From an uncultured Lachnospiraceae bacterium (GTDB lineage: Bacteria; Bacillota; Clostridia; Lachnospirales; Lachnospiraceae), in contig CAMOIV010000005.1 of the NCBI GenBank assembly GCA_946616305.1, positions 1 to 36,059 of the forward strand: a stretch of 36,059 bases of DNA. The letters run 5' to 3'. Below, piece by piece: positions 4,514 through 14,148 of the stretch. The notes under the pieces were generated by a model that was not told the DNA's origin, made no database searches, and worked only from the letters and a program-made list of their open reading frames with translations. A program made the position numbers and the translations under genes. The stretch's first letter is position 1. Every line of letters begins with the position of its first letter.

Positions 4514-4612
4514 ACCCCCCAATACATGATACCGTCCGTTCAGGGCGGTACCCCATAAGAAAGAAATACCTTCTCCTGAAATGGCTGATCGCGATCGGCC
4601 ATTTCTACTTTT
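4514..4612 (+). ncRNA. Candidate small RNA or terminated leader, unknown family
   Basis: About 99 bases lie between a consensus promoter and an intrinsic terminator, with no plausible reading frame. The predicted RNA has a C-rich 5' end (taccccccaatac). A hairpin follows at 4530-4550 (taccgtcc / gggcggta, one wobble), then a single-stranded stretch containing accttctcc, then the terminator stem. The C-rich patches are complementary to Shine-Dalgarno-like sequence, as in several Firmicute trans-acting RNAs. I compared it mentally with common riboswitch consensus cores (c-di-GMP I and II, preQ1, fluoride, guanidine, ZTP) and saw no match. It could be a free regulatory RNA or an attenuated leader of the Tad operon. 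Confidence 0.45.
4578..4612 (+). terminator. Intrinsic terminator of the short transcript
   Basis: A 12-bp stem (gaaatggctgat / atcggccatttc, one G-U pair) with a CGCG loop is followed by tactttt. It lies just upstream of the second promoter, so it separates the short transcript from the Tad operon. Confidence 0.7.
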
Positions 4613-4622
4613 AAAAAAGTTC

Positions 4623-4651
4623 TTGACAAGAAATCCCCCAGGGTGTATTTT
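4623..4651 (+). promoter_or_regulatory. Predicted promoter of the Tad operon, with a dyad at the -35
   Basis: TTGACA at 4623-4628, a 17-base spacer and TATTTT at 4646-4651 predict a start near 4658, about 60 bases before the first Tad gene. The -35 box lies inside a 13-base perfect dyad, TTCTTGACAAGAA, at 4620-4632, which may be an operator. Confidence 0.6.
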
Positions 4652-4719: not shown

Positions 4720-5112
4720 ATGAAGGAATATCTATATCTTTTCATGCTGTTTGCCTGCGCCATGACGGACATTGTAACATATCGGATAAAGAACGTATTT
4801 CTGGCCCTTCCTTTAGGCATACTTCTCATTTGTGACCCGTCTTCGCAAAATCTTCGCGACATGCTATTGATATTTATCCTCTTTATCCCCTTTTACTGTC
4901 TGGGTATGGTCAAGGCCGGCGATATAAAACTCTTAATGGCCGCAACGGCCTTCATCGGAACAGCCTCTCTCATAGAGACAGCCGTTTATACGGTACTTAT
5001 CTCCGTCATCTCGATCATGGCATTGAGTATCAGAAATCAAACCCCCGTTCTACAGACGAAAATACCTTTCGCATTCTCATTTTTCATGGGATCATTTCCG
5101 TTTTTTATCTGA
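4720..5112 (+). CDS. tadV: Prepilin peptidase 1, A24 family (TadV/CpaA-like)
   Basis: A 130-residue polytopic membrane aspartyl protease that cleaves the leader peptides of Flp pilin and pseudopilins. The two catalytic aspartates of the A24 family are visible: D17 in CAMTDIVTYRIKN and D68 in the GxGD-type motif GMVKAGDIKLL. Several hydrophobic helices fill the rest. Length fits the short TadV form, which lacks the N-methyltransferase domain of PilD. It opens the Tad operon and is followed after 12 bases by tadZ. The start ATG has aaaggac upstream. A second A24 peptidase occurs in the same operon (11910-12335), which is unusual. Confidence 0.85.
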   Translation: MKEYLYLFMLFACAMTDIVTYRIKNVFLALPLGILLICDPSSQNLRDMLLIFILFIPFYCLGMVKAGDIKLLMAATAFIGTASLIETAVYTVLISVISIMALSIRNQTPVLQTKIPFAFSFFMGSFPFFI

Positions 5113-5124
5113 AAAGGAGTGAAT

Positions 5125-6126
5125 ATGGGATCAAATGACAGAGCCAATATGGCAGTGATCTTTTCCCAGAGCGACTATCTGCTGGGATTCATGAATTACA
5201 TATATGACAGCAAAACAGGCTTTTCCTGCTTCGGTTTTACAAGCAATGACAAGCTGATGGGATTTGCCAAAGAACATGGCATATCTTTACTGCTGTCGGA
5301 TAAGGAGAGCTATGAAACAGGTGCAAAACAGATCAAGTCCGAGATCACGGTAGTTCTGGCAGACAGGGCGGAGATGGAAACATGCAAGGATGCATATGTG
5401 GTAGACATCCTGCAGCCTGTGGATGAGATCTTAAGAGAAGTCCTTTCCATAGCCTCCATGTCTGATATAAAGGTCTCCTCCGTGACTTCGGGAAACGACG
5501 GGATGGTCCATACGGTTTATTCCCCTGTAAACAGATGTCTGAAAACCACTCTCGCCATGACCTTTGCCCAGATATTATCCGAGAGAGAAGACACCATATA
5601 CATAAATTTCGAGGCGGATTCGGGTTTTTCTTCCCTTTTCATGGAAACCTACGACGGGGACCTTTCGGATCTGATGTTTTATCTGAGGGACGACGGCAAG
5701 GACAGGTTCGGCTTAAGACTTCAGAGCATAGTGAGAGAAAGCAGAGGTGTTAGGTACATACCGCCGGTCTCGGTGCCGGGAGATCTGGCCCAGATCGGAG
5801 CGGAGGAAGTGACAGAGCTTCTGCTTTGCATAAAGAGCATGGGATACAGAAATATAGTGATGGATCTGGGAACCTATATGGAGGGCTTTGAAAAGATACT
5901 TGAGGCTTCAGACAGGATATACACTCCCGTAAGACGGGACAGTATGTCACAGGCAAAACTCTCATATATGGATTCATATCTGCACTTTACGGGACATGCA
6001 GCCTTGGCGGAGAGAATGGAGCTTTTGGAACTCCCTTATTTCAAGGATATACCGTCAGTGGCGGGAGATCTTAAGAGCACGGAGCTTGGAAAGTATGCAA
6101 GAGATCTGCTGGAGAGAGAACAATGA
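5125..6126 (+). CDS. tadZ: TadZ/CpaE-like localisation ATPase
   Basis: A 333-residue protein of the MinD/ParA-related TadZ group, which places the Tad secretion machine in the cell. The N-terminal ~110 residues look like a degenerate receiver-type domain. A P-loop-like segment, TVYSPVNRCLKTTLAM, lies near residue 133. It keeps the KTT of a ParA Walker A but lacks the usual glycines, a pattern common in Firmicute TadZ proteins and suggesting altered or weak ATPase activity. The track begins at a GTG at 5119. I choose the ATG at 5125 because the ggag at 5116-5119 is then correctly spaced. The end overlaps tadA by 4 bases (ATGA). Confidence 0.78.
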   Translation: MGSNDRANMAVIFSQSDYLLGFMNYIYDSKTGFSCFGFTSNDKLMGFAKEHGISLLLSDKESYETGAKQIKSEITVVLADRAEMETCKDAYVVDILQPVDEILREVLSIASMSDIKVSSVTSGNDGMVHTVYSPVNRCLKTTLAMTFAQILSEREDTIYINFEADSGFSSLFMETYDGDLSDLMFYLRDDGKDRFGLRLQSIVRESRGVRYIPPVSVPGDLAQIGAEEVTELLLCIKSMGYRNIVMDLGTYMEGFEKILEASDRIYTPVRRDSMSQAKLSYMDSYLHFTGHAALAERMELLELPYFKDIPSVAGDLKSTELGKYARDLLEREQ

Positions 6127-7361
6127 AGGAAGAAAACACGGAAGTATTATCAAAGCTGAGAGAGGATGTTATCTCCAGGATAGATATGTCAAGGGATGTA
6201 TCCGATGAGGAGATACGGTCCATCATAAAGGAAGAGATCTCGGCACTGAAAAAGAAGACCTGCATAGGACTGAATGAGAGAGAAGAGTATTTCAGGATCC
6301 TTTTCAACGAGGTCAGGAGACTGGGGATACTGGAGGAACTCATAGCCGATAATTCGGTGACGGAGATCATGGTGAACGGCACAGATGAGATATTCATAGA
6401 AAAGAACGGCAGTGTATCCAAATGGGATAAGCACTTTGCCTCCGTGGATAAGTTAAGAGCAGTCATACAGCAGATAGTGGCTAAAAACAACAGAGTCGTA
6501 AACGAAGCTTCTCCCATAGTGGATGCCCGACTTGAAAACGGTGCGAGAGTAAATGTGGTAATGGCTCCCGTGGCCATAAACGGGCCCATCCTTACCATCA
6601 GGAGGTTTCCGGATGATCCCATAAGGATGAAGGATCTGATCTATTTCGGGTCCATAACCTCCGAGGCAGCTGATTATCTTAAAAATCTTGTAGCATCCGG
6701 CTACAACATATTTGTCTCGGGGGGAACCGGCTCCGGTAAAACCACCTTTCTGAACGCATTATCCGAATTTATTCCCCCTGACGAACGCATAATCACCATA
6801 GAGGATTCCGCAGAGCTGCAGATAAAGGGAATAGACAATCTGGTAAGACTTGAGACCAGAAATGCCAATGTGGAAGGCCTTAAGGAGATAACCATAAGGG
6901 ACCTTATCAAAACCTCCCTGAGAATGCGCCCGGACCGTATCATCGTGGGGGAGATCAGGGACGGAGCGGCGCTGGATTTTCTGTCGGCAGCGAATACGGG
7001 GCATGACGGCTCTCTATGTACGGGACATGCCAACAGTGCGAAGGACATGTTATCCAGGATCGAGACCATGGTACTTATGGGGATGGACCTGCCCCTCCCC
7101 GCCATACGCAGACAGATGGCTTCGGCCATAGATATCATAATCCACCTTGGAAGGCTCAGGGATAAAAGCCGGAAGGTGCTGGAGATATCGGAAATGTCAG
7201 GCCTTGAGAGGGGCGAATTCGTGCTGAATCCCATATACAGATTTATAGAGGAAGGAGAAACAAAAAGTGGACTCATTAAAGGACATCTCAAAAAAACGGG
7301 AAAGCTTGAATTTGTTGAAAAACTCAGGCGAAAAGGTCTTTATGATAAGGATCTTGTTTGA
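6123..7361 (+). CDS. tadA: Tad secretion ATPase TadA (CpaF family)
   Basis: A 412-residue secretion ATPase of the VirB11/CpaF family that powers assembly of Flp pili from the cytoplasmic face. An N-terminal domain of about 130 residues is followed by the RecA-like core. Walker A VSGGTGSGKTTF is near residue 200, the Asp box IITIEDSAELQ near 223, Walker B RIIVGEIRDG near 272, and the His box GHDGSLCTGHANS near 297. Length and motif order match CpaF. The start overlaps the tadZ stop. The end overlaps the next gene by up to 95 bases, depending on which start of tadB is used. Confidence 0.95.
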   Translation: MKEENTEVLSKLREDVISRIDMSRDVSDEEIRSIIKEEISALKKKTCIGLNEREEYFRILFNEVRRLGILEELIADNSVTEIMVNGTDEIFIEKNGSVSKWDKHFASVDKLRAVIQQIVAKNNRVVNEASPIVDARLENGARVNVVMAPVAINGPILTIRRFPDDPIRMKDLIYFGSITSEAADYLKNLVASGYNIFVSGGTGSGKTTFLNALSEFIPPDERIITIEDSAELQIKGIDNLVRLETRNANVEGLKEITIRDLIKTSLRMRPDRIIVGEIRDGAALDFLSAANTGHDGSLCTGHANSAKDMLSRIETMVLMGMDLPLPAIRRQMASAIDIIIHLGRLRDKSRKVLEISEMSGLERGEFVLNPIYRFIEEGETKSGLIKGHLKKTGKLEFVEKLRRKGLYDKDLV

Positions 7362-8043
7362 ATGGCTGGCTATAAGCGGTGCCGCAGCATACATCTTTTA
7401 TCAAAGTATGATCCCCTTTTTCATCCTGCTGCCGGGTATCGCAGTATACGGAAGGTACCGCCTTGATCAGGAAAGAAGGGCTAAAAAGAGCCTGCTTGCC
7501 CTGCAGTTTCGTGAAAGCATCCTGTCCGTCAGTACGGCTCTGAATGCCGGATATTCCGTTGAGAACTCATTTATTGAAGCATATTACGACATGAAGAACA
7601 TGTACGGCGAAGATGCACTGATCACATCCAGGTATCGCCGGATGGTGATGAAGCTTCGGGATAATGAACCAATAGAGTACATAATCAAGGATTTTGCCAT
7701 GGAATCGGATATAGAGGATATATACGATTTTGCCAGTGTATTTGACGCTGCGAAAAAGGTGGGCGGAGACATGACTAAGATCATTAAGCGGGCAGCATCC
7801 AATATAAGTGAGAAGATAGATGTGAAAAGGGAGATCGCTACATCCGTCAGTGCCAAAAGGTATGAGATAAGAGTGATGGAGATAGTACCCTTCGGAATAC
7901 TTGCTTATCTGCAGCTGACCTCCGGTGAATTCATATCCGTCCTGTATCACAACGTGACGGGAGCAGCCCTCATGACCGGGGCACTTACGGTTTACACTGC
8001 GGGATTCATAATGGCGGAAAAGATACTGGATATCGAGGTGTAG
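7267..8043 (+). CDS. tadB: TadB-like inner membrane platform protein (T2SSF family)
   Basis: A 258-residue membrane protein from the GTG at 7267. It has an N-terminal hydrophobic segment (LAISGAAAYIFYQSMIPFFILLPG), a cytoplasmic type II secretion F-like domain beginning RESILSVSTALNAGYSVENS, and C-terminal helices. It would form the platform moved by the TadA ATPase, together with TadC. The start is uncertain. GTG 7267 has a well-spaced aaggag (7252-7257) but gives a 95-base overlap with tadA. ATG 7342 has aaagg and overlaps by only 20 bases. Sequence just before the second start resembles Firmicute TadB N-termini as I remember them, which favours the first. Confidence 0.85.
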   Translation: MDSLKDISKKRESLNLLKNSGEKVFMIRILFEWLAISGAAAYIFYQSMIPFFILLPGIAVYGRYRLDQERRAKKSLLALQFRESILSVSTALNAGYSVENSFIEAYYDMKNMYGEDALITSRYRRMVMKLRDNEPIEYIIKDFAMESDIEDIYDFASVFDAAKKVGGDMTKIIKRAASNISEKIDVKREIATSVSAKRYEIRVMEIVPFGILAYLQLTSGEFISVLYHNVTGAALMTGALTVYTAGFIMAEKILDIEV

Positions 8044-8046
8044 GTC

Positions 8047-9393
8047 ATGAAGCTGTTTTATCTGCTGGCAGAAAAGATACTTATATTCCTGCCGCCTAAG
8101 GAAACGGAATATGTAAGAGAAAAACAGATGCTGATGCATCCCGGTGAATCGGGATCCAAGGTAACAAGGGAATACTATATAAAAAAGCTTGGAGACGCCA
8201 TGCTCATCGCTGTGGTCGGAGTGATCCTGTCGGTGTGCATCCTGATCGCCGACTGGAACAACAGACAGGCAATGCTTGGAAGCTCCATTCCCAGAAACGG
8301 ATACGGAGAAGGGGACAGAAGAGTACGGGTCAATGTATACACCGATGGGGAGATATATGAAAAGGACAAGGTCATCACGGTGGAGGAGAGACAGTTCTCT
8401 CAAAAGGAAACGGAAAAGGTGTTCCGTGAGACCAGAGAATGGATAGATCGGACCGTGCCCGGAAAAAACGCTTCCCTGGATCATGTGGTATACGATCTGG
8501 TTTTCCCGGAAGCCGCCGTGGATTATCCCGTAAACATAGAATGGATGACGGATAATTATGATGTACTGGACACAAACGGGAAGATACAGGAGGATTTTGA
8601 GGACGAAAAGGGGGAGAAGGTGAGGATCAGTGCAACATTGAGCTATGGAGCCAGGGAGGAAGTATACGAATTCTATGCATTGGTTTTCCCCAGATACAGA
8701 GAAGAAAAGGAGCAGCTGACCCATGATATCGACCGGATGATAGATACATACGCAAAGGCAAGTATAAGCAGCAATGAGCAGCCACTGCCGGAAAACGTGA
8801 ACGGGAGAAGTCTATCCTATGAGGAGGCTCTGCCCATGACCTGGCTGTACATCCTCTCCTGCGGGATCCTCTCCTCCGTTATCGTATACATGGGCAGGGA
8901 CAGGGAGCTTAAAAAGAAGGTGGAAAAAAGGGAGAGAGAAATGCTCCTGGATTATCCGGAGATAGTAAGCAAGCTTACTCTGCTTATAAGCGCGGGACTT
9001 ACGCTGAGGGCGGCCTTCGAGAGAGTGGCCTGTGATCATGCCGTCTGTTCCCATAAACGGAGGTCCTATGCCATGGAGGAGATGATGATAACCGTCCACA
9101 GGATGAGAAGCGGAATAAGTGAATATGAAGCATATCTGGACTTCGGTAAGAGATGCGCGGTAAAGAGATATACAAAGCTTGGGGCATTGTTCTCCCAGAA
9201 TATAAAAAAGGGAAGCGCAGGACTGCTTCAGGAACTTGAAAGAGAGGTACAGGATGCTTTTGAAGAGAGAAAAGCCAATGCCAGAAGAGTGGGAGAGGAA
9301 GCAAGCACGAGGCTTCTGCTCCCCATGGTAATGATGCTCTCGGTGGTGATGATAGTGGTCATCGTGCCGGCTTTCATGTCTTTTTCCCTATAG
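8047..9393 (+). CDS. tadC: TadC-like platform protein with a large extracytoplasmic insert
   Basis: A 448-residue protein. A transmembrane helix lies at about 51-68, and a second at about 263-283 precedes the cytoplasmic T2SSF domain, which starts near YPEIVSKLTLLISAGLTLR. A final hydrophobic helix closes the protein (LLLPMVMMLSVVMIVVIVPA). Between the first two helices are roughly 190 residues that should face outside, based on simple topology. Textbook TadC proteins of about 300 residues have no such loop. The gene starts 3 bases after tadB with aggtg upstream. It should pair with TadB as the pilus platform. The identity of the external domain is unknown to me. Confidence 0.83.
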   Translation: MKLFYLLAEKILIFLPPKETEYVREKQMLMHPGESGSKVTREYYIKKLGDAMLIAVVGVILSVCILIADWNNRQAMLGSSIPRNGYGEGDRRVRVNVYTDGEIYEKDKVITVEERQFSQKETEKVFRETREWIDRTVPGKNASLDHVVYDLVFPEAAVDYPVNIEWMTDNYDVLDTNGKIQEDFEDEKGEKVRISATLSYGAREEVYEFYALVFPRYREEKEQLTHDIDRMIDTYAKASISSNEQPLPENVNGRSLSYEEALPMTWLYILSCGILSSVIVYMGRDRELKKKVEKREREMLLDYPEIVSKLTLLISAGLTLRAAFERVACDHAVCSHKRRSYAMEEMMITVHRMRSGISEYEAYLDFGKRCAVKRYTKLGALFSQNIKKGSAGLLQELEREVQDAFEERKANARRVGEEASTRLLLPMVMMLSVVMIVVIVPAFMSFSL

Positions 9394-9398
9394 ATAGG

Positions 9399-9456
9399 GC
9401 ATAGAGCGCCCGGGCGCTTATGCATATATGTGATATCCGGGTTTCACCGGGGTATC
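9399..9456 (+). other. Tandem hairpins in the tadC-flp gap
   Basis: Hairpin 1 (9399-9423) has arms gcata-agcgc and gcgct-tatgc with one bulged G and a CCGG loop. Its core is a 14-base palindrome, AGCGCCCGGGCGCT. Hairpin 2 (9432-9456) has arms gatatccgg and ccggggtatc with one bulge and one wobble. Neither has a T-run, so termination is unlikely. They sit just 5' of the pilin ribosome binding site and may stabilise or define the 5' end of a processed pilin mRNA. Confidence 0.55.
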
Positions 9457-9486
9457 CGTAATAATTGAAAGAAAGGAGGGATGTCT

Positions 9487-9648
9487 ATGCTGATGAGGTT
9501 TCTCAAAGAAGAGGACGGTATCGGAACAGTGGAGATGATACTGATCCTCGTGGTTCTTATCGGGCTTGTGCTCATCTTTAAATCTCAACTCACCGATCTG
9601 GTGAACAGTATTTTCAAGACAATCAACAAAAAGGCGGGACAGGTATAA
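9487..9648 (+). CDS. flp: Flp-type pilin (type IVb prepilin), 53 residues
   Basis: This gene is too short for the ORF track. Translation gives a positively charged leader, then EEDG, then IGTVEMILILVVLIGLVLIF and a short hydrophilic tail ending KKAGQV. This is the Flp1 pattern. The prepilin peptidase would cut after the Gly of EEDG, leaving Glu at position +5 of the mature pilin and one long hydrophobic helix that packs in the fibre. The aaggaggg at 9473-9480 is too close to the ATG at 9481 but well placed (7 bases) for the ATG at 9487, so I use the latter; the ATG at 9493 is also possible. It lies between tadC and the DUF5702 gene and should be the major pilus subunit. Confidence 0.9.
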   Translation: MLMRFLKEEDGIGTVEMILILVVLIGLVLIFKSQLTDLVNSIFKTINKKAGQV

Positions 9649-9668
9649 GTAACGCCGGGAGGGAATAA

Positions 9669-11090
9669 ATGAAATACAGGGGAACTATCACTGTTTATTT
9701 AAGCCTGATACTGACCATCATACTGTCAGTCATTATGGGTATGACGGAAAGTGCCGCATATGCAGCAGCAAGGATGAAATGTGAACTTGCGACAGACTTG
9801 GCTTTAGAATCGGCATTTGCGGAATACAACAGAGAGCTTCTTAACAGGTACGACCTGTATTTCATTGATACCTCCTACGGAAGCAAAACGCCGTCGGTTG
9901 AGCAGCTTAAGGAGCACATTAAGGATTATGTCAGTTATAACATCGACCCCTCAAAGGGAACTCTGAGCCTTATACAACCGGCGGACTTCACTGCCCTGAG
10001 ACAGGATGAACTGGAGATAGTTGAGATATCCTATGCATCGGATGCTGCAGGAAGAGTGTTCAAAAGACAGGCAATACAGGCGCTGGAAGACATGTATGGG
10101 ATAAATGCCGCCAGATCCCTTGCATCCAAAGCTGGAAGCCGGGTATCGGAATATGAAAACAGCGGCATTGAGAGGGAAAACCCGGATGAAAAGAGAATGG
10201 AGATCGAGGAGAGGCTAAACGGCCTTGACTATAAGATAGACGAAAATCCGGCGAGAAATGCCTTTGATGACCGTCCGGGTATACTGGAGCATGTCATGAG
10301 AACGGATCATCTGTCAGATAAAACCATAAACATCGGCGAATACATCTCTCACAGGCAGACCATAAAAGGCACGGGGCTGCACGGAGGGCAGACGGATACG
10401 GAGAGCACGCTTTCCGAGCTGATGTTTGATGAATATCTTTTGGAGAAGTGCACGTCCTATACGGATGGCCCCAGAGACTTAAGTGCTGACTACGAGCTGG
10501 AGTATATCCTGCACGGAAGGAGCTCGGACAAGGCAAATCTGAGAGAGACGGTGGAGAGACTGCTGCTGCTCAGATACGGAGCAGATGCGGCATATATATT
10601 TACGGATCCGGGAAAGAAGGATGCGGTGGAAGCAGTAGCTCTGGTCATAACGGCGATCCTTATGGTACCTGACGCGGCAGAGCCCCTGACGGATCTGATA
10701 CTGCTGGCATGGGCATACGGAGAGAGCGTATCCGACGTGGTAAGGCTCATGGCAGGAGAAAGAGTTCCCCTGACAAAAACAGATGAGGACTGGAAGATGC
10801 CTCTATGGGGACTGCTGTCCATAAAAACCTCGGCCAGACCAACGGGTCAGATCGGTACAGGCTTCTCGTATGAAGATTATCTCAGGGTTTTCCTGTTTTT
10901 TCAGAATAAGACCGAGAAGTGCATGAGAGCCATGGACGTGGTGGAAATGAACATGCGGCTTACAGAAGGGAATCAGGGTTTCAGGATGGACGGCCTGGTG
11001 GAATATGTATCCGTGGCAGCGGCCATGACCTGCAGAGGAAAATACAGGCTGACCATAGACCGGAAAATGAGTTATCTGAGTGATCACTAA
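9669..11090 (+). CDS. DUF5702-like Tad-associated protein, possible minor pseudopilin
   Basis: A 473-residue protein with one N-terminal hydrophobic helix (VYLSLILTIILSVIMGM), followed by ESAAYAAARMKCELATDLAL and then EYNRELLNRYDLYFIDTSYG. I recall this pattern from the DUF5702 family found in Firmicute Tad loci. The rest is a long extracytoplasmic region with no recognised domain. The N-terminus MKYRG-TITVY resembles the prepilin cleavage context of the neighbouring pilins (Gly, then x-x-T-V) but has Tyr where they have Glu. It may be a TadG-like tip or anchoring component. A gggaggg ribosome binding site precedes the ATG. It lies 20 bases after flp. Confidence 0.75.
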   Translation: MKYRGTITVYLSLILTIILSVIMGMTESAAYAAARMKCELATDLALESAFAEYNRELLNRYDLYFIDTSYGSKTPSVEQLKEHIKDYVSYNIDPSKGTLSLIQPADFTALRQDELEIVEISYASDAAGRVFKRQAIQALEDMYGINAARSLASKAGSRVSEYENSGIERENPDEKRMEIEERLNGLDYKIDENPARNAFDDRPGILEHVMRTDHLSDKTINIGEYISHRQTIKGTGLHGGQTDTESTLSELMFDEYLLEKCTSYTDGPRDLSADYELEYILHGRSSDKANLRETVERLLLLRYGADAAYIFTDPGKKDAVEAVALVITAILMVPDAAEPLTDLILLAWAYGESVSDVVRLMAGERVPLTKTDEDWKMPLWGLLSIKTSARPTGQIGTGFSYEDYLRVFLFFQNKTEKCMRAMDVVEMNMRLTEGNQGFRMDGLVEYVSVAAAMTCRGKYRLTIDRKMSYLSDH

Positions 11091-11106
11091 AGGAAAGGCA
11101 AAGGTA

Positions 11107-11913
11107 ATGTTTCGAAAAAGAGGCTTCTTTCGGGGAGTTCACTATAACCCCAAGAATAAAGCAAAAAATATGTGTGAAAAAAAGGTGCAAAAAACAAACA
11201 TGTCTCTCTACCCACTCCGGAGGAAGTCTCTTTTTGGGAGCATTACCGTGGAAACTGCCCTCATCCTGCCTATCTTCCTCTTTGCCATGCTTTCCGTCAT
11301 GTTTCTTACGGATGCCATAAGAGAATCCTCAAAAAAGCTGGCCCTGCTGTCAGAGAGAGCCTATAAGGCCGCAAAATATGCCTATCTCGGTAATGCCGTG
11401 GTAGACAGGACAGGCCTTGAGGATACACTGGACATCCTTAACGGGGGAGATGACATCATAGATCTGGTGGACAGGTACCGCATAGACGTTCCTTTCGACA
11501 TCCTGGGGACATATGATCCCTATACCGTAGACAGGGTACGGATCAGGGCCTTTACAGGCTATGACAATCTAAAGGCCGGTCACAGCGCCACGGGGGATCC
11601 GGAGGAGATGGTATTCGTGACTGAGACCGGGTCGGTATATCACAGGTCCTTAGGCTGTTCACATCTGAATCTCAATATCAGGAGCGTACCATTTGGCGAA
11701 CTGAAAAAAGAGAGGGCAAACGACGGGTCAAAATACTATGCCTGTGAGCATTGCGCAAGAAACAGGGGAGACCCTGCAGTGGCTTATATTACGGATGACG
11801 GTAACAGATACCATACCACTTTAGGGTGTCCGGACCTCAAAAGGACTCTCAGGGAGGTCCCCCTTAGTGATGTGTCCTTAAGACCCTGCAGTGAGTGCGG
11901 AGGAGGCTTATGA
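11107..11913 (+). CDS. TadE-like pseudopilin with duplicated Cys/His modules
   Basis: A protein of 268 residues from the ATG at 11107, which has aggaaagg at an 8-base spacing. The track start is a GTG at 11080, and ATGs at 11170 and 11200 are also possible. A basic N-terminus of about 40 residues precedes LFGSITVETALILPIFLFAM, a class III prepilin motif with Gly at -1 and Glu at +5 and a TadE-like helix. After a central domain the C-terminus holds two similar units. Unit 1 is YHRSLGC...ACEHC and unit 2 is YHTTLGC...PCSEC. Each keeps one His and three Cys that could bind a metal or form disulfides. It should be a minor pilin with an exposed Cys-rich end. Confidence 0.8.
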   Translation: MFRKRGFFRGVHYNPKNKAKNMCEKKVQKTNMSLYPLRRKSLFGSITVETALILPIFLFAMLSVMFLTDAIRESSKKLALLSERAYKAAKYAYLGNAVVDRTGLEDTLDILNGGDDIIDLVDRYRIDVPFDILGTYDPYTVDRVRIRAFTGYDNLKAGHSATGDPEEMVFVTETGSVYHRSLGCSHLNLNIRSVPFGELKKERANDGSKYYACEHCARNRGDPAVAYITDDGNRYHTTLGCPDLKRTLREVPLSDVSLRPCSECGGGL

Positions 11914-12335
11914 TGATAAAACTGTTTTTACTGGGGTTTTCGATCACGGCGTGTGTATACGACCTGAAAAGCAGGCAGATACCGGTTTTGCTTTTTCTCA
12001 TATTCGGGATCACAGGCATGGTGCTTTACCCCATCTACGGGACCAATACCTTTATTGACGAATTGTATGGTGTGATCATAGGAGTTGTTTTCATAGCCAT
12101 ATCATATATCTCCAAGGGGCAGCTGGGCATGGGAGACAGTCTTGCCATACTTATCACGGGTATATGCCAGGGAGGCACCAAAGTGGCATTTTCCTGTATA
12201 TATGCCCTTTTTGCCGCAAGTATATTCTCACTGGGACTGATGATAATAAAGAGGTACAAGAAGGACCATACCATCCCCTTCATCCCCTTCCTGACGGCGG
12301 GCATAGTATTTCAGGAGATCATATCATGTCAGTGA
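11910..12335 (+). CDS. Prepilin peptidase 2, A24 family
   Basis: A second short prepilin peptidase, about 141 residues from the ATG at 11910. The adjacent ATG at 11913 is equally possible, and aggagg lies at 11901-11906. Both catalytic aspartates of the A24 family are visible: one in CVYDLKSRQIP and one in GQLGMGDSLAI, which matches the GxGD motif better than peptidase 1 does. It has several hydrophobic helices. It overlaps the TadE-like gene by 4 bases and lies between the two TadE-like pseudopilins, so it may process them, while peptidase 1 near tadZ processes Flp. That division of labour is inference; the enzymes could be redundant. Confidence 0.85.
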   Translation: MMIKLFLLGFSITACVYDLKSRQIPVLLFLIFGITGMVLYPIYGTNTFIDELYGVIIGVVFIAISYISKGQLGMGDSLAILITGICQGGTKVAFSCIYALFAASIFSLGLMIIKRYKKDHTIPFIPFLTAGIVFQEIISCQ

Positions 12336-12790
12336 AAAAAAGGCTTGCCGGATCATATACCATAGAAGCGGCCCTTATATTTCCCTTAATAATGACAGTC
12401 ATAGTGTTTCTTATATACTGCTCCTTCTATCTGCACGACAGGGCAGTGATGCAATCCTGCGCCTATCAGGCTGCCCTTAAGGGAAGCATGGAAAGAAGAT
12501 CCGATGAAGATATGGCAAGGGAGGCCAAAAGGGCAGCGGATTACAACATAGAAGGGCTGCTGCTTCGGACCGAGGGGCTTGAGACCAGGGTTGATGTTTC
12601 GGGCTCTTCGGTCACGGTAAGCTACAGCGGGTATCTTATGGTGCCGCAGAACATAGTGTTCATGAAGATAGCGGGGTTTGATGAGATAAAGGTTGAGGGC
12701 AGCAGCAGTGCATCGAAAAAGGATGCCATAGAGTTTATACGCATGTGCCGGGGAACCAAGAACCTTGCGGAAAATGTTGGAGGTGAATGA
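12326..12790 (+). CDS. TadE/TadF-like pseudopilin
   Basis: A 154-residue protein. The track ORF begins upstream at 12164, inside peptidase 2, but the ATG at 12326 has aggag at an 8-base spacing and directly precedes the prepilin motif. The N-terminus MSVKKRLAG is followed by SYTIEAALIFPLIMTVIVFL, with Gly at -1 and Glu at +5. A TadE/F-like helix and a small extracytoplasmic domain with beta-rich character follow (RVDVSGSSVTVSYSGYL). It is probably a minor pilin of the same pilus. It overlaps the end of peptidase 2 by 10 bases and the next gene by 4. Confidence 0.82.
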   Translation: MSVKKRLAGSYTIEAALIFPLIMTVIVFLIYCSFYLHDRAVMQSCAYQAALKGSMERRSDEDMAREAKRAADYNIEGLLLRTEGLETRVDVSGSSVTVSYSGYLMVPQNIVFMKIAGFDEIKVEGSSSASKKDAIEFIRMCRGTKNLAENVGGE

Positions 12791-14148
12791 TGGATATAAC
12801 ATATAAAAGGATGGGTCTGAAAACATATCTCGTGATCGGTAAGAATGATAATACGATATCCGGATTCCATGAAAAGATGATAACCAGGAACCGTATACCG
12901 TATCTTATAAGGATGATGCCGCAGAATATAGACGGCAGGACTTATTATTACTATGACATACAGGGCAGGGTTAACATGGAAACCCTGTATTCCGTGAGGA
13001 CCATGAGTGCTTCCGAGGTTTCCTGTTTCCTTGAAAAGCTTTCCGCCATGCTTTCGGAGCTGCAAAGATATCTGCTTCTTCCGGGAGATATAATATTCGA
13101 TCCGGCCAACATATGGTTCAGTCTCGATAACATGGAGCCGGGATTCATATATGTCCCGGAGAAAAGAGGAGATCATCAGGAAGGGGCCAGAGAGCTTGCG
13201 GAATATATAGCCCTGAGGGCAGACCCGGAGGACAGGGAGGCAGCGGGGATGGCCTATTCCTACCTTGAAAGTGTGGAAAGCGGCGATATCATACCTAAGG
13301 TGCGACAGGTGCGTAACGACCCTGACAACGGTATGGCGGGAGATGGGAAGGATGCACCGGATAATGGATTATCCGAGTTTATGACGGATGAGAGCTGGAA
13401 GCTTAAAGAGGGTGTGGACGAGGATATGCAGTCTCTCTTTAAAGAAGAAAGCCGGGGGTGGGACAAGGGCATAGGTCTGTTTGTGGGACTCGGGGTTTCC
13501 ATAGCATTCTGTGTATTATATGTGGTATGGGTGATATGGCCGGATCTTTTTCCCCTTGCACTGACTGAGGATGAATACATGATATTCGGAGTATCGGTTG
13601 CAGTGGGGTTCGCCATAGTCCTGGTGCTATCCCTGATAAGGTATAACAGGTCTCTTGCGAAGAAGAGGGCCGAAGAGGGTGAGATAAAGGACAGGCTCAT
13701 GGCTGAAAGAGAGGAGGACCCCGTTGACCGTATGGACTATATGGCCGGTGTGGAGGATGCGGATCCCTCTGATGAGAGGACCATGCTCCTGAGAAGAAAA
13801 GAGGAAGGTGCGGTCAATGATATGGTAACAGCATGCCCGTCTCTTACATCACAGGATGGCAGAAGGATAGTCATGAAGCACTTTCCCTTCATACTGGGTA
13901 AGATGAAGAACCGCGTGGATGAGATAATAGAGGCGGAGGGTATAAGCAGGCTCCATGCCATGATAAAGGAAACGGACGGAAAGTATTATCTGTCCGATCT
14001 GAATTCTCTGAACGGCACCTATCTCAACGGGGAAATGCTCATGACCAACTCGACGGCAGAGATATCAGATGGGGACGTGATATCTCTGGCCGATATTTCC
14101 TTTACTTTTCAAACGGGAAGAGGGTATCAAGTATACGCAGCTTTTTAA
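12787..14148 (+). CDS. Membrane FHA-domain protein (DUF6382-like N-terminus)
   Basis: A 453-residue protein. The N-terminal ~190 residues (MMDITYKRMGLKTYLVIGK...) resemble the DUF6382 domain seen in Tad-locus proteins of Firmicutes. Two transmembrane helices lie near residues 228-250 and 264-284. The C-terminal ~90 residues form an FHA domain, with ILGKMKNRVDE, ISRLHAMI and DLNSLNGTYLNG carrying the Ser-Arg, His and Asn residues that bind phosphothreonine peptides. Both ends appear cytoplasmic. It may link Ser/Thr kinase signalling to pilus assembly. The start overlaps the pseudopilin by 4 bases (ATGA), and it is the last gene of the Tad operon. The stop lies inside the convergent flavodoxin-fold gene (47-base overlap). 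Confidence 0.85.
   Translation: MMDITYKRMGLKTYLVIGKNDNTISGFHEKMITRNRIPYLIRMMPQNIDGRTYYYYDIQGRVNMETLYSVRTMSASEVSCFLEKLSAMLSELQRYLLLPGDIIFDPANIWFSLDNMEPGFIYVPEKRGDHQEGARELAEYIALRADPEDREAAGMAYSYLESVESGDIIPKVRQVRNDPDNGMAGDGKDAPDNGLSEFMTDESWKLKEGVDEDMQSLFKEESRGWDKGIGLFVGLGVSIAFCVLYVVWVIWPDLFPLALTEDEYMIFGVSVAVGFAIVLVLSLIRYNRSLAKKRAEEGEIKDRLMAEREEDPVDRMDYMAGVEDADPSDERTMLLRRKEEGAVNDMVTACPSLTSQDGRRIVMKHFPFILGKMKNRVDEIIEAEGISRLHAMIKETDGKYYLSDLNSLNGTYLNGEMLMTNSTAEISDGDVISLADISFTFQTGRGYQVYAAF

Follow-up and report, generated by a model that had tools for sequence, protein, structure and literature searches.

A family-wide Tad pilus operon of Lachnospiraceae with two prepilin peptidase lineages, one of which appears specialised for minor pilins

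Introduction

Why should a single pilus operon encode two prepilin peptidases, enzymes that are usually regarded as promiscuous? The question is raised by a 36,059-nucleotide stretch of DNA from an uncultured Lachnospiraceae bacterium (hereafter the window, meaning this stretch at its full length), for which a preliminary description, made from the letters alone, had proposed a Tad operon with two peptidases that process the major and the minor pilins separately. As we report here, the thin surface pilus of the Lachnospiraceae, a common gut family, is encoded by one gene cluster that usually includes two different pilin-trimming enzymes. The observation is real and general across the family, and the peptidase whose gene lies amid those of the probable tip subunits seems to have specialised in these subunits.

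Results

Positions 4720-14148 of the window hold a complete monoderm Tad (type IVc) pilus operon in its Lachnospiraceae form, in which pep1, tadZ, tadA, tadB, tadC, flp, DUF5702, tadE1, pep2, tadE2 and a DUF6382-FHA gene follow one another on the + strand; the preliminary description had located all of these genes, and the two-peptidase operon that they form, correctly. A consensus scan, which is the only source for both features, found a terminator-like stem 3' of ftsH (4578-4605, +) and a promoter-like TTGACA-17-TATTTT directly 5' of pep1 (4623-4651, +). Pep1 itself (4720-5112) is a TadV-like A24 prepilin peptidase of 130 residues (PF01478, 29.6 bits, above cut-off), with D17, KAGD68 and K70, and its assignment draws on invariant columns as well. 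It is followed by a TadZ-like protein (5119-6126), for which the Pfam TadZ-like_ARD match is weak and below cut-off and the position is kept across the family, and by the TadA/CpaF ATPase (6123-7361; PF00437, E 4e-57; top NCBIfam match TIGR03819). The platform proteins are TadB (7267-8043), recognised by a weak T2SSF match and a family profile, with a real start that is probably near 7350 rather than 7267, and TadC (8047-9393; PF00482), which carries an inserted aBig_2-like domain (PF20578).

The second half of the operon encodes the major prepilin Flp (9481-9648; PF16982, 90.6 bits), a prepilin-like DUF5702 protein (9669-11090; PF18960, 270 bits) and the pseudopilin TadE1 (11080-11913), identified by a PF07811 match of 20.6 bits, just under cut-off, together with a family profile and a motif count. 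Pep2 (11910-12335), a Lys-less A24 prepilin peptidase of 141 residues with D18 and GMGD76 (PF01478, 29.8 bits, above cut-off), has a reading frame that, as read from the sequence, shares 4 bases with tadE1 and 10 with tadE2. The pseudopilin TadE2 (12326-12790; PF07811, 38.7 bits) and the DUF6382-FHA protein (12787-14148; PF19909 and PF00498), product of the operon's last gene, complete the set. The locus contains what defines a Tad system, namely a TadA-type ATPase, a TadB/TadC pair, TadZ (weak in Pfam), a Flp-type prepilin and TadE-type pseudopilins, and its closest named relatives are Lachnospiraceae MAGs. Secretin and RcpC are features of diderm Tad forms only. In agreement with the preliminary description, and as expected of a monoderm, neither was found across the whole genome, which is 84.5% complete and in which pep1 and pep2 are the only A24 genes above cut-off, with no third.

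Three further features of the operon proteins deserve mention. The aBig_2-like (atrophied Ig) domain of TadC, which is shared, in some cases weakly, by six of the eight relatives tested, sits in the N-terminal half of the protein; it is probably extracellular, and could act as a wall conduit that replaces the secretin. At its C-terminal end TadE1 has a tandem pair of YH..C..L / CxxC modules, with exactly two YH..C motifs in 93 of 108 family members and exactly two CxxC in 100 of 108, and these modules probably bind metal. The DUF6382-FHA gene closes the operon in nearly all family loci, and its presence there suggests phospho-dependent control of the pilus.

The four prepilin-like N-termini read just as they had been written: G^IGTVEM in Flp, G^SITVET in TadE1, G^SYTIEA in TadE2 and G^TITVYL in DUF5702. 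Across about 125 loci, residues other than Gly and Ala are very rare at -1, and hardly any start of Flp, TadE1 or TadE2 is without Glu+5, a regularity far beyond chance. The DUF5702 start keeps the Gly-x-x-T-[V/I] pattern attributed to it (-1 is Gly or Ala, and +3/+4 are T-V/I), but the family as a whole calls for a correction, in that Glu+5 is missing and Phe or Tyr takes its place in 111 of 119 starts. Tip pseudopilins such as GspK characteristically have no Glu5, so that the DUF5702 start fits the expectation for a tip subunit, which this protein probably is. An N-terminal helix of 47 residues, three strands and a large insert of helices make up its AF2 model (pLDDT 91), for which a fold search returned no credible PDB match.

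How widespread is this arrangement? DUF5702 is present in 115 of 120 genomes sampled across Lachnospiraceae, and the 100 DUF5702 loci that were retrieved, which with the window make 101, are largely alike in gene order. Of the 101 loci, 93 have, downstream of DUF5702, a pep2-type gene that with few exceptions sits between tadE1 and tadE2; 61 have an upstream gene of the pep1 type, and 57 have both peptidases. An upstream pep1 is missing from 40 loci; in about ten of these a pep1-type gene is found close to tadZ, either inverted or on a different contig, and the remaining genomes have stand-alone PilD-like or short enzymes instead. The arrangement noted in this genome is thus real but not peculiar to it, being family-wide. 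Chance or an assembly artefact can be ruled out, because some 100 genera show the same order.

Among the genomes for which A24 genes were listed individually, a second A24 was found in every pep2-bearing genome save four, of which three (G020, G154, G159) are incomplete; in the fourth (G068, 96% complete) the pep2-type enzyme is the only one in the assembly, and the contig stops just upstream of flp. In a class-wide DUF5702 sample the two-peptidase arrangement was visible in Lachnospiraceae loci, and none was found in the 1.5 kb DUF5702 flanks of other families. Matches of 91-102 bits in three genomes (G320, G260, G345), scores only, bear on the question of pep2-type enzymes outside Lachnospiraceae. 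In one congener (G123) the peptidase genes stand 37 kb apart on one contig (C4:134792 and C4:171651), so that the locus may be split or may hold a large insertion. Several genomes have a second locus (L183, L188, L206, L207, L052) with a DUF5702-like protein, in some cases reaching 800-1300 aa, a TadE-like gene and an A24 of its own.

The claim that the operon encodes two distinct A24 peptidases, each with both catalytic Asp residues, was confirmed (Pfam Peptidase_A24; D17/D68 in pep1, D18/D76 in pep2), and the comparison of peptidase trees with gene position across Lachnospiraceae Tad loci, which had been put forward alongside it, yielded two lineages, that of pep2 at a conserved position. 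The Asp pair is kept in 60 of 61 pep1-type enzymes, the remaining one being an alignment gap, and in 94/94 of the pep2 type. Two residues after the second Asp, that of the GxGD motif, Lys is found in 61/61 pep1-type and 0/94 pep2-type enzymes; it is also present in most PilD-type enzymes, and the printed peptidase motifs of a second set of loci obey the same rule. In a 44-sequence A24 tree, pep2-type enzymes form one clade (support 99/98), as do PilD-type enzymes (99/99), with pep1-type enzymes reaching only 78/1, and in a 240-sequence A24 tree the pep2 group falls inside one starred clade. Judged by tree and signature, pep1 and pep2 are separate lineages. A recent tandem duplication as the origin of the pair is rejected by the 44-sequence tree. 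The nearest solved relative of pep2, whose AF2 model has a pLDDT of 95, is FlaK (PDB 3s0x), both in sequence (E 0.00027) and in fold (probability 1.00, TM 0.69).

Which peptidase, then, tracks which pilin? Residue -1 of each substrate was placed by HMM-anchored motifs in a first set of 104 one-per-genus loci and in 58 further loci, the second set, which came from a different genome collection and from which records that overlapped had been taken out. In the first set, TadE1 has a residue other than Gly at -1 in 51 of 96 loci with pep2 and in 0 of 8 without it (Fisher 0.0059); the second set points in the same direction (29/54 and 0/3). In the pooled counts this residue, often Ala, occurs in 80 of 150 loci with pep2 and in 0 of 11 without, where TadE1 always has Gly; the Ala is placed at -1 by alignment. 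A Pagel test links pep2 to TadE1 over 154 loci (P=0.007) and on the first set (P=0.017), the latter a value that alone would fail multiple-test correction. For pep2-less tips predicted from the rest of the tree, 5.2 non-Gly TadE1 starts were expected and 0 observed (P=0.0008), with 1 observed vs 3.0 expected for TadE2, 0 vs 2.1 for DUF5702 and 1 vs 1.4 for Flp. Since about 14 trait pairs were tested, and since pep2 absence is rare, with some 4-5 independent origins on the tree, so that the Pagel test rests on few events, we take these results as support, not proof.

The pilins themselves show a related pattern. TadE1 and TadE2 covary at -1 (P=1e-4 in 104 loci, 0.003 in 58 loci, Pagel P=0.0001 in 154 loci), no covariation of Flp with TadE1 or TadE2 was found in either set, and no link between pep2 and Flp was found in 104 loci or by the Pagel test on 154 loci (P=0.93). 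The phylogeny-aware results at -1 thus tie pep2 to the minor pilins. The tie between pep1 and Flp is suggestive: Flp has a non-Gly residue at -1 in 19/69 loci with pep1 vs 1/31 without in the first set (Fisher 0.0056), and with phylogeny taken into account the Pagel test gives P=0.09 (154 loci) and prediction for pep1-less tips gives 3 observed vs 7.3 expected (P=0.14); in the 58-locus set the link is not significant. No link of pep1 to TadE1 was seen in the 104-locus count, and none was found when TadE2 and DUF5702 were tested. Prediction from the tree does make pep1-less loci somewhat poorer in non-Gly TadE1 (19 observed vs 26.9 expected, P=0.018), which indicates that the split is not clean.

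Natural exceptions point the same way. Eight of the 104 loci are without pep2 and retain TadE1 and DUF5702, seven of these eight retaining TadE2 as well. Two genomes, G070 (99% complete) and G075 (95%), have the Tad set, no pep2 and a single PilD-like A24, and in G070 all four substrates have Gly at -1. A pilus with one PilD-like peptidase in these genomes implies that one enzyme can suffice and that the split is not obligatory. Of the proposal that major and minor pilins are processed separately, the half that joins pep2 to the minor pilins is therefore sustained, by position, clade and -1 statistics; the half that joins pep1 to Flp amounts to a trend, and an obligatory split is countered.

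Discussion

Taking the gene content, the conserved order, the two lineages, the signature residues and the -1 statistics as observed, we think it more probable than not that this is a Tad pilus operon with two functionally distinct prepilin peptidases, in which pep2 is specialised for minor pilins and the split is not absolute. Both enzymes would be active, each with targets of its own, and the minor pilins would form the tip. Pep2 would mature both TadE pseudopilins and probably also DUF5702, which has no Glu5 and is a proposed tip or cap subunit, and would accept Ala besides Gly at -1; the TadV-like pep1 would mature at least Flp, and a PilD-like enzyme could stand in for it. In loci that have lost pep2, the minor pilins would be cut by another peptidase, and TadE1 would then need Gly at -1. 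We are close to evenly divided, leaning slightly against, on a fuller version, in which pep2 represents a Lys-less A24 subfamily with relaxed P1 (Gly/Ala), reserved for the minor pilins encoded in the same operon, such that shaft and tip have processing lanes of their own and pep2 loss forces TadE1 to Gly(-1).

The two peptidases might instead both be general and redundant; the second copy, translationally coupled, would then provide dosage or timing, and the split between clades would go back to old paralogy without substrate preference. The single-peptidase Tad genomes G070 and G075, and the minor pilins retained in pep2-less genomes, are what such redundancy would lead one to expect, and for Aggregatibacter the title of Tomich 2006, as listed in PMC12075869, reports one TadV that processes Flp1, TadE and TadF. 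Redundancy does not, however, predict that TadE1 and TadE2 but not Flp should track pep2, nor that the Lys signature should be wholly missing from one lineage only, and we consider it unlikely, if well worth keeping in mind. It is very improbable that pep2 keeps the A24 fold without being a protease and acts on minor pilins as an assembly or retention factor: although it is without the Lys that every pep1-type enzyme and most of the PilD type have, both catalytic Asp residues and the first Gly of GxGD are invariant (94/94), and the TadE1 residue that tracks pep2 presence is -1, a protease-subsite position.

A further alternative concerns pep1, since one catalytically dead enzyme would have spoken against the two-peptidase proposal. 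The GxGD motif is intact in pep2 (GMGD), and pep1 of this genome has Lys for the first Gly (KAGD), by which it is possibly dead. A codon or sequence error is ruled out, the same variant being present in five congeners; among 14 genus relatives, window included, this position is Lys in 6, Ala in 3, Ser in 1 and Gly in 4. In presenilin the equivalent change G382K abolished APP and Notch cleavage, and G382A did not (PMC5669866). Pep1 of this genus lineage could thus be becoming impaired, with pep2 taking over all processing, and the first Gly replaced in 10 of 14 relatives, the presenilin result and the lack of a detected third A24 in this genome would all agree with that. Against it, pep1 retains the catalytic Asp pair and the Lys at +2, diverges no faster than pep2 in the subclade (mean identity 0.47 vs 0.44) and carries a substitution that is stable across species, which makes impairment improbable.

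If the preferred reading, specialisation of pep2 for the minor pilins, is true, a family-wide operon with a tip-tracking peptidase lineage would mean that cells can separate the maturation of shaft and tip, and the Lachnospiraceae offer both natural deletions and cultured strains in which to study it, for instance of Roseburia faecis and Blautia wexlerae, which carry both enzymes. In the literature searched, which left most subscription journals outside its coverage, we found no paper describing the two-peptidase arrangement or DUF5702.

Single-peptidase Tad loci, such as those of Aggregatibacter (known here from a title naming TadV) and of Bulleidia extructa, where one tadV opens the operon (PMC12786226), share with the Lachnospiraceae operon the core TadZABC, Flp, TadE-type pseudopilins and an A24 enzyme. 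Loci in Paenibacillus (L412) and Catenibacillus (L417) have one downstream A24 which, unlike pep2, keeps the Lys. FlaK, an archaeal preflagellin peptidase and the best solved relative of pep2, differs in being an archaellum enzyme whose motif GGGDGK retains the Lys that pep2 is without. In the Kil (Tad-like) system of Myxococcus xanthus, the short A24 enzyme KilA serves some minor-pilin tips, being required for the function of tips 2-4 and not of tip 1 or the major pilin, for which another peptidase is inferred (PMC12075869). That system differs in being diderm and having other pilins, and for its second enzyme PilD has been proposed (PMC12075869), whereas the Lachnospiraceae operon encodes both enzymes and draws pep2 from a Lys-less clade. 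By analogy, KilA is the nearest functional precedent for pep2, and the residue -1 patterns lend statistical support to the view that pep2 would work, like KilA, as a tip-dedicated peptidase.
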